From Achromobacter xylosoxidans A8 (GTDB lineage Bacteria > Pseudomonadota > Gammaproteobacteria > Burkholderiales > Burkholderiaceae_B), in assembly GCF_000165835.1 (NCBI RefSeq), contig NC_014640.1:3100001-3164000 (forward strand): a stretch of DNA of 64,000 nucleotides, in the 5' to 3' direction. Below the pieces are notes generated by a model. It searched no databases, was not told the DNA's origin, and saw only the letters and a program-made list of their open reading frames with translations. Below are positions 15,115-18,245 of this stretch, piece after piece. Every line of letters starts with the position of its first letter. The stretch's first letter is position 1. The translations under genes were made by a program, and so were the position numbers.

Positions 15115-15927
15115 TCAGCGATAGGCGAACTCCTCGAACCATTGCATCAGCAGCGCCAGGGCCGGCGCGCCGAGCGCGCGCACCGGCGGCGCGTCGGGCG
15201 AGCGGCGCGCGCCCTGCACGGCAAAGCGGCGCACGCCGCGGCGCGCCAGCTCGCGCGCCAGGGCCAGCAGCCGGGTTTCGTCCAGCCAGTCCGGATGCCA
15301 GGTGATGCGGCATTCGAAGTCGATGTCGGCAGCCAGCAGCTGCGCCAGGCACGCCAGCGCAGGGCGCTGCGAGTCGCGCCGGCCGGTGATGTCGTCATAG
15401 CCCTGGGCGTCGGCCTTGATGTCCAGGCCGACCCAGTCGAGGTACCGCAGCACGTCGGCCAGGCGCAGGGGGTAGATGCCGGCGGTATGCAGCCCGACGC
15501 GGTAACCCATGCGCCTGACGTCGCGGATCATCTGCGGCAGGCGCGGCTCGCTCAAGGGTTCGCCGCCGGAAAATACGATGGCGTCGAGCAGGCCCTTGCG
15601 CGTTTCCAGGAAGGCGCGCGTCTCGCGCCAGTCGTAGCGCGCGGCGCGGGTCTGCAGTTCGACGTTGTGGCAGTAGTGGCAGCGCCAGGGGCAGCCCGCG
15701 ATGAACACGACCGCGGCCAGTTGCCCCGGCCAGTCCACGGTGGAAAAAGGCACCAGCCCGCCGACCGCGGGCGAATGCCGCGGCAGGGGCTGGGCCACCG
15801 GTTGCGGCGGCGCCGGGTAGGCCGGCCGCGCCGTCAGCCGCCGCGTGCCCGGGCCGCAGCCCGGGGTGGACGCGGCGGCTTGTGGCGCGCCTTCAGGCGC
15901 TGCGTTCGACGAAGAAGCGGCGTTCAT
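15115..15927 (-). CDS. nrdG: Anaerobic ribonucleotide reductase activating protein NrdG
   Basis: A radical-SAM activase that makes the glycyl radical on NrdD. The 4Fe-4S motif CPWRCHYC (Cys79, 83, 86) is preceded by VPFSTVDWPGQLAAVVFIAG and followed by VFSGGEPL, both typical of the NrdG/PflA-like group. 270 residues, with a roughly 50-residue proline/alanine-rich N-terminal extension that looks unstructured. Its start overlaps the end of the 60-residue glycyl-radical gene by 35 bases, so the two are tightly coupled in the nrd operon. A start further inside the extension cannot be excluded. Confidence 0.92.
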   Translation of the reverse strand: MNAASSSNAAPEGAPQAAASTPGCGPGTRRLTARPAYPAPPQPVAQPLPRHSPAVGGLVPFSTVDWPGQLAAVVFIAGCPWRCHYCHNVELQTRAARYDWRETRAFLETRKGLLDAIVFSGGEPLSEPRLPQMIRDVRRMGYRVGLHTAGIYPLRLADVLRYLDWVGLDIKADAQGYDDITGRRDSQRPALACLAQLLAADIDFECRITWHPDWLDETRLLALARELARRGVRRFAVQGARRSPDAPPVRALGAPALALLMQWFEEFAYR

Positions 15928-16075
15928 TGAATTCGCCCTGTTTGCCGGTGTTGAAGGAAGCGACGGGGCGGTGGTAGCCCATGACGCGGGTCCAGATTTC
16001 GCAGCGCACGCGCTGGCTGTCGTCCAGCCGCAGGGCGGGAGCGGTGGTGACTTCGGGAGCGATCAAGGTTTGCAT
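15893..16075 (-). CDS. nrdD: Separate glycyl-radical domain of anaerobic ribonucleotide reductase (NrdD C-terminus)
   Basis: A 60-residue protein whose second half, RVMGYHRPVASFNTGKQGEF, is the glycyl-radical loop that ends ordinary single-chain NrdD proteins; Gly33 in RVMGY is the expected radical site. GAGGA lies six bases before the ATG, so it is translated independently. It is 73 bases after the stop of the NrdD core and in a different frame. Core (664) plus tail (60) adds up to about the length of E. coli NrdD (712). The N-terminal 25 residues have no evident match. The tail must bind the core in trans, as YfiD does for pyruvate formate-lyase. Confidence 0.88.
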   Translation of the reverse strand: MQTLIAPEVTTAPALRLDDSQRVRCEIWTRVMGYHRPVASFNTGKQGEFNERRFFVERSA

Positions 16076-16148
16076 GGCGGTTCCTCAGGGAGTGAATGCC
16101 GGGCGGCTGCCCGGCGGTCCGGTTGGGGCCTGTCGTGGTGACCAGGTC

Positions 16149-18143
16149 CTAGGCCGGGGTGCAGCATGCCGATTGCTTGGCCAGCAGCTCGGCATCGCAT
16201 TTCGGGCAGAACTCGTGGTGCCCCGCCAGATAGCCGTGGTTGGGGCAGATGGAGAAAGTCGGCGTGACCGTGATGTAGGGCAGCCGGAAGTTCGACAGCG
16301 CGCGGCGCACCAGCTGCTTGCACGCGGCGGCGGAAGACACGGCCTCGTTCATGTACAGGTGCAGCACGGTGCCGCCGGTGTACTTGCCTTGCAGCGTTTC
16401 CTGCAGCTCCAGCGCATGGAAGGGATCGTCGGTGTGGCCCACCGGCAACTGGCTGGAGTTGGTGTAGTAGGGCTGAGTCTCGCTGCCCGCCTGCAAGATG
16501 GCGGGATAGCGCTTGCGGTCCTCGCGGGCGAAGCGGTAGGTGGTGCCTTCGGCGGGCGTGGCTTCCAGGTTGTACAGATGGCCGGTCTCTTCCTGGAATT
16601 CGGTCATGCGGGCGCGCACGCGGTCCAGGAGGCGCACGGCCAGGGCGTGTCCCGCCGCAGAGGTGATGTCCTCGGCGTCGTCCGTGAAGTTGCGGACCAT
16701 CTCGTTGATGCCGTTCACACCCAGCGTGCTGAAGTGGTTGCGCAGAGTGCCCAGATAGCGGCGGGTATAGGGATAGAGACCCTGGTCGATATAGCGCTGC
16801 ACCACTTTTCGCTTGGTTTCCAGCACATCGCGGCCCAGCTCCAGCAGATGGTCCAGGCGCTGCATCAGCCGCGCTTCGTCGCCGCGGCAGGTATACCCCA
16901 GGCGCGCGCAGTTGACCGTGACCACGCCGACCGAGCCGGTCTGCTCGGCCGAGCCGAACAGGCCGTTGCCGCGCTTGAGCAATTCACGCAGGTCCAGCTG
17001 CAGGCGGCAGCACATCGAGCGCACCATGTGCGGTTCCAGGTCCGAGTTCAGGAAGTTCTGGAAGTAGGGCAGGCCATAGCGCGCCGTCATCTCGAACAGG
17101 CGCTCGGTGTTGGGATGGTCCCAGTCGAAGTCGGGCGTGATGTTGTAGGTGGGAATGGGGAAAGTGAATACGCGGCCCTTGGCGTCGCCGGCCATCATGA
17201 CCTCGATGTAGGCGCGGTTGATCATGTCCATCTCGGTCTGCAGTTCGCCGTAGGAGAACGGCATTTCCTCGCCGCCGATGTACGGGATCTGCTCCTTCAG
17301 GTCCGGCGGGCAGGTCCAGTCGAACGTGAGGTTGGTGAAGGGCGTCTGCGTGCCCCAGCGGCTGGGCACGTTGAGGTTATAGATGAGTTCCTGCATGGAC
17401 TGCTTCACTTCCGCGTACGTCATGGCGTCGCGGCGGATGAAGGGCGCCATGTAGGTGTCGAAGGAACTGAACGCCTGCGCGCCGGCCCATTCGTTCTGCA
17501 GCGTGCCCAGGAAGTTGACGATCTGGCCGATGGCCGCCGACATGTGGCGCGCCGGAGTCGCTTCCACCTTGCCGGGGATGCCGTTGAAGCCTTCGGTCAG
17601 CAGTTGGCGCAGCGACCAGCCGGCGCAATAGCCGCTCAACATGTCCAGGTCATGGATGTGGATGTCGCCTTCGCGGTGGGCGCGGCCGGCTTCGGGCGCA
17701 AACACGTTGGACAGCCAGTAGTTGGCGGTGACCTTGCCCGCCACGTTCAGGATCAGGCCTCCCAGGCTGTAGCCCTGGTTGGCGTTGGCGTTGACGCGCC
17801 AGTCGCGCTGGTCCAGGTATTCCTCCATGGCGCTTTCCACGTCCACCAGCGTGTGGCGCAGCGAGCGCAGCCGGGCGTGCTGTTCGCGGTGCACGATGTA
17901 GGCGCGCGCGGTGCGCCAGTGGCCCGCCTGGACCAGGGCTTCCTCGACGCGGTTCTGGATGGTTTCGACGCCGGGGCAGGGGTTGCCGGCCAGCGCGGCG
18001 ATGACGCCGTCGGTCAGCGTTTGCGCGCCCGCCAAGTCCAGTTCCCCGGTGCTCTGGCCGGCCGCCGCCATGGCTTGGGCGATCTTGTCGCGGTCGAACG
18101 CCGCGACCCGGCCGTCGCGCTTGAGGATGTGCTGGATATGCAT
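16149..18143 (-). CDS. nrdD: Anaerobic ribonucleoside-triphosphate reductase NrdD, core lacking the glycyl radical loop
   Basis: 664 residues of a class III ribonucleotide reductase, which makes dNTPs without oxygen. An ATP-cone at residues 1-90 (MHIQHILKRDGRVAAFDRDKI) senses ATP/dATP, followed by the ten-stranded barrel (HIHDLDMLSGYCAGW; MTYAEVKQSMQELIYNLNVP; FPIPTYNITPDFDWDHPN). The protein ends soon after the zinc site CPNHGYLAGHHEFCPKC, before the RVMGY radical loop, which is supplied by the next gene. ATG at 18143 is preferred because family members begin M-x-I-Q-H; the ATG at 18155 lies inside the left NrdR box. The operon continues with the glycyl-radical gene and nrdG. Confidence 0.93.
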   Translation of the reverse strand: MHIQHILKRDGRVAAFDRDKIAQAMAAAGQSTGELDLAGAQTLTDGVIAALAGNPCPGVETIQNRVEEALVQAGHWRTARAYIVHREQHARLRSLRHTLVDVESAMEEYLDQRDWRVNANANQGYSLGGLILNVAGKVTANYWLSNVFAPEAGRAHREGDIHIHDLDMLSGYCAGWSLRQLLTEGFNGIPGKVEATPARHMSAAIGQIVNFLGTLQNEWAGAQAFSSFDTYMAPFIRRDAMTYAEVKQSMQELIYNLNVPSRWGTQTPFTNLTFDWTCPPDLKEQIPYIGGEEMPFSYGELQTEMDMINRAYIEVMMAGDAKGRVFTFPIPTYNITPDFDWDHPNTERLFEMTARYGLPYFQNFLNSDLEPHMVRSMCCRLQLDLRELLKRGNGLFGSAEQTGSVGVVTVNCARLGYTCRGDEARLMQRLDHLLELGRDVLETKRKVVQRYIDQGLYPYTRRYLGTLRNHFSTLGVNGINEMVRNFTDDAEDITSAAGHALAVRLLDRVRARMTEFQEETGHLYNLEATPAEGTTYRFAREDRKRYPAILQAGSETQPYYTNSSQLPVGHTDDPFHALELQETLQGKYTGGTVLHLYMNEAVSSAAACKQLVRRALSNFRLPYITVTPTFSICPNHGYLAGHHEFCPKCDAELLAKQSACCTPA

Positions 18144-18148
18144 GACTG

Positions 18149-18195
18149 ACACCATATGTAGTAGGGTGTGAAAACTCTACCACCACATATGGTGC
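18149..18195 (-). promoter_or_regulatory. Pair of NrdR boxes upstream of nrdD
   Basis: ACACCATATGTAGTAG (18149-18164) and, on the opposite strand, GCACCATATGTGGTGG (18180-18195) both fit the NrdR consensus acaCwAtATaTwGtgt at nearly all strong positions. The gap is 15 bases, giving 31 bp start to start (three helical turns), the known layout for NrdR-controlled ribonucleotide reductase operons. The left box ends six bases before the likely start codon, so the promoter must be covered. Confidence 0.82.
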
Positions 18196-18231: not shown

Positions 18232-18245
18232 TTGATGCGCGTCAA
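18232..18245. promoter_or_regulatory. FNR/Anr-type site upstream of nrdD
   Basis: TTGATGCGCGTCAA matches the FNR consensus TTGATnnnnATCAA in 9 of 10 fixed positions. It lies about 95 bp before the nrdD start and upstream of the NrdR boxes, which fits oxygen-responsive activation of the anaerobic enzyme. The exact promoter between it and the boxes is not clear. Confidence 0.65.

Follow-up and report, generated by a model that had tools for sequence, protein, structure and literature searches.

Locus and composition of the enzyme

The anaerobic (class III) ribonucleotide reductase NrdD encoded on the minus strand of a 64,000-nucleotide stretch of Achromobacter xylosoxidans A8 (contig NC_014640.1, positions 3,100,001 to 3,164,000; hereafter the window) is very probably an enzyme of two chains. 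These are a core and a separate chain of 60 amino acids that carries the predicted radical glycine and the C-terminal tail. Class III enzymes are described, in the literature consulted, as single chains that bear the radical at their own C-terminus. The parts were known already and the small gene had been annotated; the two-chain split as such appears to be new, and no description of a split NrdD was found in the open-access literature searched, outside which most subscription papers lie.

The core (Table 1) consists of an ATP-cone (PF03477, residues 9-94), a barrel and the finger-loop motif MCCR, with the glycyl-radical loop missing, and it terminates with ...CPNHGYLAGHHEFCPKCDAELLAKQSACCTPA followed by a TAG stop. 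It matched NF006126 with 1120.9 bits (profile positions 3-657 of 684, above the cut-off) and belongs to the NRDD barrel family by its match to PF13597 (NRDD; 581 bits, likewise above the cut-off, profile positions 2-528 of 562). Profile positions 532-562, the loop that holds the radical glycine of a class III enzyme at the C-terminus of the same chain, were matched instead by the product of the small gene (E 2.5e-7, above the curated cut-off). The motif RVMGYHRP of this product includes Gly33, which was aligned with Gly621 of Thermotoga maritima NrdD using a profile of 32 small chains (residues 616-645; a weak match, E 0.32). Gly621 is given as the radical glycine of that enzyme (PMC4493059). 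The next gene is nrdG, the cognate activase expected of a class III NrdD, which shares 35 nt with the small gene. The original prediction, made from the letters of the window, that the core stops after its zinc module with no RVMGY loop, and that the loop with Gly33 lies in a gene of its own 73 nt downstream in another frame behind its own ribosome site, was accurate in each of these details.

In the 7.36-Mb genome (3 contigs) the core and the small chain gave the only two NRDD matches. A single PF02867 reductase (class I or II) is encoded as well, and a genome search for the PF01228 glycyl-radical domain gave no match at E 0.1. With no radical glycine in the core and no other glycyl-radical domain found in the genome, the small chain is apparently an obligate subunit.

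Distribution of the split among bacterial genomes

PF13597 was searched against drawn samples of 101 genomes of the family, 369 of the class and 398 of the phylum. The source genome was in each sample, some genomes were common to several, and rows were tallied by hand. Matches above the cut-off were obtained in 34, 38 and 56 genomes, respectively, and complete loop-less cores of this lineage in 31, 25 and 13, corresponding to 64 different genomes. It had been predicted that the split is stable and makes NrdD a two-chain enzyme, and a count across genomes had been proposed. This count, with loci checked by script, gave a small partner gene for 64 of the 64 complete loop-less cores, in all three frames and once unlinked, which supports the prediction; the small gene was conserved in related genomes, and in the family sample the complete cores of this lineage included no full-length close relative against which the window would show a frameshift. 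In 63 of the 64 genomes the small gene was a neighbour of the core, at distances that varied; in the remaining one (G761) the core stood alone, with the small gene and nrdG ∼9 kb off. Within the family sample the partner was beside the complete core in 31 of 31, a conservation by which chance is excluded as the source of the pattern. Three further genomes (G234, G390, G413) held a fragmentary core with the small gene.

A set of 188 loci with a core was assembled from several search tools. The loci overlap between tools and are not independent (L019 and L203, for example, seem to be the same contig); two loci of a distant lineage are included, and the partial loci L113 and L217, together with L002, L099, L110, L115 and L116, lie outside the set. 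The split with an adjacent small gene was found in 151 of these loci, distributed over the three frames as 37, 50 and 64, with the motif 31-397 nt past the core stop. A scan of named genomes matched at least 583 stretches, of which at least 565 were confirmed and the best 80 kept. These were mostly from beta-proteobacteria, with Achromobacter closest among the matches listed. The split was adjacent in 78 of the 80, L248 was also split, and in L226 only 0.6 kb of fetched DNA separated the small gene from the end of the stretch; tblastn identified nrdG in 80 of 80. Most loci have an ATG of their own and a purine-rich site ahead of the small gene.

It is very improbable that the two frames are joined in translation, by programmed frameshifting, stop read-through or bypassing, into an ordinary one-chain NrdD. 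Such joining would be compatible with a small gene that in most genomes directly follows the core, and with frames that agree in 25 of 79 named-genome loci, 20 of which have a single intervening stop. The conserved frame relation and distance of a programmed frameshift were not found in the 151 split loci, however, and the start codons and purine-rich sites of most small genes, the G761 locus and the lone copies on phages and plasmids all speak against joining. A gene broken by mutation or sequencing error, with the small reading frame as its remnant, can be dismissed almost entirely. Single-chain relatives do exist, some at 68-75% identity (L034, L064, L068), but the same split recurs in all 31 complete cores of this kind in the family sample and all 64 of the three samples, and the small gene has an annotation of its own in plasmid records. 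In addition, pN/pS was 0.083 over 36 codons of the small gene, aligned as one block, in 53 pairs drawn from 11 loci of Achromobacter or the same genus (some of them near-duplicates). Frameshift, read-through, pseudogene and intron readings were rejected on the varying frames and distances, the unlinked G761 case and the 73-nt gap in the window. Two separate chains remain the best reading because the split is stable and widespread and involves no frameshift.

The pN/pS value shows signs of purifying selection on the small gene within the genus. Values over all pairs (host 0.34, viral 0.40) were saturated and were not relied on.

Few single-chain relatives are close to this core. Among the fused loci fetched from the three samples, five have at least 48% identity to it (L032, L033, L034, L056, L103) and 28 others 21-26%; these figures cover the fetched loci, with the fused matches of G022, G084 and G361 among those outside. 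Single-chain forms were found farther off and in two plasmid lineages. A core tree of 63 rows was calculated by a quick method, and its long branches leave the deep parts unsure. Single-chain L064 and L068 were nested in split forms (94 and 91, not starred), L103 was sister to the split L063 (starred), and the starred branches force at least three changes, distant rows included. Fission followed by re-fusion and several independent fissions would both fit this tree. A like split was found in a distant NrdD lineage (G744, G812), where a stop is followed by a small loop gene in frame (L093:3412-3594, L096); this second lineage rests on two loci that are 98% identical.

Plasmid records matched the small chain in 29 cases (fused forms counted in) and the core in 27. 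Split plasmid loci were identified in Cupriavidus necator H16 pHG1, Bradyrhizobium ottawaense, Shinella and Sulfuricurvum kujiense, annotated as 'ribonucleoside triphosphate reductase' and a small 'nrdD'; RefSeq likewise names the small gene a second 'nrdD' in several relatives. Single-chain nrdD was found in Acidiphilium and Actinomyces oris. The C. metallidurans genome paper gives NrdDG as Rmet_5137 and Rmet_5139, and the skipped number between them is presumably the small gene. On a Bradyrhizobium japonicum plasmid (NZ_CP126016.1, 48282-51612) the match to the core fell into two pieces, beneath which an IS3-like transposase is annotated.

Proposed mechanism

The genes would be transcribed together and translated separately, to judge from their anatomy. 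The small chain would dock non-covalently on the core by the zinc module, placing the RVMG loop in the barrel, and NrdG would generate the glycyl radical on it. The active-site cysteine would then receive the radical, as in the one-chain enzymes of the family. Beyond this, a fresh small chain might replace a cut or used one, and phages or plasmids with a lone small gene might supply the chain to the host core; exchange after oxygen damage, which had also been predicted, and the use of host NrdD by phages are both inferences.

The C-terminal domain of Prevotella copri NrdD is described with a zinc site, then the buried glycine loop, then a tail (PMC11226230). By this order the split falls between zinc site and loop, and the zinc role of the CPNHGYLAGHHEFCPKC module near the end of the core is inferred from the same family description. 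The split enzyme appears to work in vivo, since nrdDG of C. necator H16, whose locus is split, is reported to be essential for complete denitrification (PMC2864759, citing Siedow 1999).

The following points weigh against this picture. The H16 dependence is reported, in the same source, for nrdDG as a unit and is countered by B12. In an AlphaFold model of the stop-read-through chain of Thiobacillus thioparus (mean pLDDT 74.9), the mean pLDDT was 58 and 42 in the two blocks at the radical loop and 29-31 beyond, so that the loop was not placed confidently. Separate dosing of the small chain, part of the original prediction, finds little support because the small gene adjoins the core in 63 of 64 genomes.

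In the small chain, Cys25 (window 16001-16003), five residues ahead of the RVMG arginine, was invariant in 32 of 32 aligned small chains, and its equivalent was kept in 94% of 77 viral copies. Of the seven single-chain forms nearest to this core, four (L033, L034, L056, L103) have Thr at this position. Cys25 may aid docking.

Comparison with known systems

Single-chain NrdD (T. maritima, P. copri, T4, Escherichia coli) has in common with the split form the barrel, an ATP-cone (in many), the zinc module, the glycine loop and NrdG, and the MCCR finger loop of this core is given for NrdDh4 in PMC4493059. The difference is that here the glycine loop and tail form a second chain, cut just past the zinc module.

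The PF01228 glycyl-radical domain is defining for YfiD/GrcA. The small chain resembles YfiD/GrcA of E. coli and Y06I of T4 in being a small autonomous glycyl-radical protein of a kind that is also phage-borne, but it matched PF13597 only (E up to 1). The parallel drawn with YfiD, which was said to replace a damaged radical domain in trans, needs correction in one respect: YfiD/GrcA and Y06I repair pyruvate formate-lyase, an enzyme with its own radical glycine, whereas the core here has none and the small chain would be obligate rather than a spare. YfiD/GrcA and Y06I are described as the sole validated spare parts, with the remark that others may exist (Andorfer et al., 2021, PMC8683613).

NrdJab of Pseudomonas aeruginosa, a split class II enzyme, is likewise a ribonucleotide reductase encoded over two genes (PMC4860495), but it belongs to another class and has no radical glycine. 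Phage nrdD genes are also found in pieces, split by introns, inteins and breaks (PMC3653736); those are interrupted genes, whereas here the radical piece is carried alone.

Lone small genes on viral contigs and plasmids

A scan of IMG/VR gave 191 confirmed stretches, of which the best 80 were examined (L117-L196); all of these records may be fragments. The 42 records taken as at least 20 kb were searched whole and the other 38 by tblastn of the core on the fetched DNA. No core was found beside the viral small gene in the fetched DNA of 79 of the 80 loci, and nrdG was found by tblastn in none of the 80. Among the 42 whole records, 41 held the NRDD loop piece only, none held PF02867, and 12 held terminase family phrog_2. 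The exception to the lone pattern, L147, is one of these 12; its core was matched in two pieces beside a small gene, and it is perhaps host DNA.

Neighbours were surveyed in 84 of 296 neighbouring open reading frames, mostly the longest. Among the 25 of 157 PHROG families listed, the commonest were amidase, integrases, virion structural protein and terminase, followed by head and head-tail proteins, clamp and clamp loader; Pfam searches of the 84 proteins added portals, capsid and DNA polymerase. In L117 the DNA polymerase and clamp genes are followed by the small gene and then the clamp loader. A PHROG-matched polymerase and reading frames in like order were found in L172, and L182 has reading frames of similar size and place, one of them 71% identical to the L117 polymerase. 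Upstream in both L117 and L172 is a reading frame that looked thymidylate-synthase-like on visual inspection.

Small chains were extracted from 77 of the 80 viral loci. Viral and host copies share a common motif, with a median best identity of 81% over 36 residues, and the motif Gly, Asn, Lys, Glu and Arg were kept in 99-100% of the 77 aligned copies, a figure that is biased because the scan and extraction patterns required the motif. Positions 112-159 of phrog_4132 (179 aa, function unknown), which is longer than the small chain, matched the small chain of the window and four of four viral small chains, so this family likely holds an NrdD-type glycyl-radical domain. Among cultured phages, two records were matched at E 0.01, and a search with a different query yielded 13 at E 10; no match reached 80% query coverage. 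The results included the unannotated record MT835493.

Lone copies were also found in bacterial DNA. Contig L115 (C3) of the bacterial genome G367 carries one near RecT, YqaJ, RadC, a sliding clamp and a PF02867 reductase; it is 100% identical in amino acids and 96% in nucleotides over 36 aa to the subunit of the genome itself (L098:1803-1991). A small 'nrdD' is present on Allochromatium vinosum pALVIN01 (L278:4980-5189) and A. tepidum pAt1 (L279:2460-2645). Neither plasmid is among the 27 plasmid records with a core match, and the stretches examined carry no nrdG annotation.

The lone copies on phages, plasmids and the mobile-looking contig give indirect support to exchangeability, and a mobile radical subunit of NrdD is plausible. 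We put it close to an even chance that phages and plasmids without core or activase slot a chain of ∼45-70 aa into the NrdD of the host. A neutral division is possible too, at somewhat less than an even chance: the two chains would cooperate after an old fission retained by chance, neither exchange nor separate control would be involved, and the copies on phages would be passengers. That the small gene has stayed next to the core in 63 of 64 genomes fits such neutrality, as does a tree that suggests both fission and re-fusion, with L064 and L068 inside split forms. It is opposed by the radical motif retained in lone viral copies, partly selected by the search patterns, and by the position of the gene amid replication genes in L117, L172 and L182, which is unlike random capture.

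It is unlikely, though worth weighing, that the lone proteins are no longer NrdD subunits and serve another enzyme or role. The missing core in 41 of the 42 whole viral records, the missing nrdG in the 80 fetched loci and the PF02867 (class I/II) reductase near the G367 copy would be expected if this were so. Against it stand the conserved motif residues, with the bias already given, the lack of PF02867 in the 42 whole viral records and the identity of the G367 copy to the genome's own subunit.

A natural two-chain form would allow the radical site to be added, omitted or replaced in vitro, so that experiments on glycyl-radical transfer and on oxygen damage could leave the core unmutated. The split NrdD would offer a direct test of the suggestion in PMC8683613 that spare parts exist for other glycyl-radical enzymes. 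Should the radical subunit prove mobile, it would renew or raise the dNTP supply during infection without oxygen, and would be an NrdD counterpart of the T4 and E. coli spare parts, so far validated for pyruvate formate-lyase only. To judge from the lone phage copies, control of anaerobic DNA synthesis could lie with a very small auxiliary gene, a role that would give phrog_4132 a likely function.

Other features of the locus

Table 1. Coordinates of the nrdD locus in the window.
Feature	Position	Strand	Remarks
nrdG, radical-SAM activase	15115..15927	-	TIGR02495 (NrdG2) 180.8 bits, cut-off 131.15
Small glycyl-radical gene, 60 aa	15893..16075	-	contains RCEIWTRVMGYHRPVASFNTGKQGEFNERRFF; frame differs from core
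Gly33 codon	15977..15979	-	predicted radical glycine, from sequence and weak T. maritima alignment
Gap, core stop to small-gene ATG	16076..16148	-	73 nt; GAGGAA ahead of ATG
nrdD core	16149..18155	-	668 aa from first ATG; 664 aa from second ATG at 18143
Zinc module CPNHGYLAGHHEFCPKC	16197..16247	-	core residues 637-653, near core end, from sequence
FNR/Anr-like palindrome TTGATGCGCGTCAA	18232..18245		upstream of nrdD; candidate site, by likeness to the consensus

Palindromes at window positions 18148-18195 are NrdR-box-like by eye; a pattern search for such boxes did not match them. The palindrome at 18232-18245 is a candidate FNR/Anr site by its likeness to the consensus, and similar sites were present in 21 of 59 related upstream regions.

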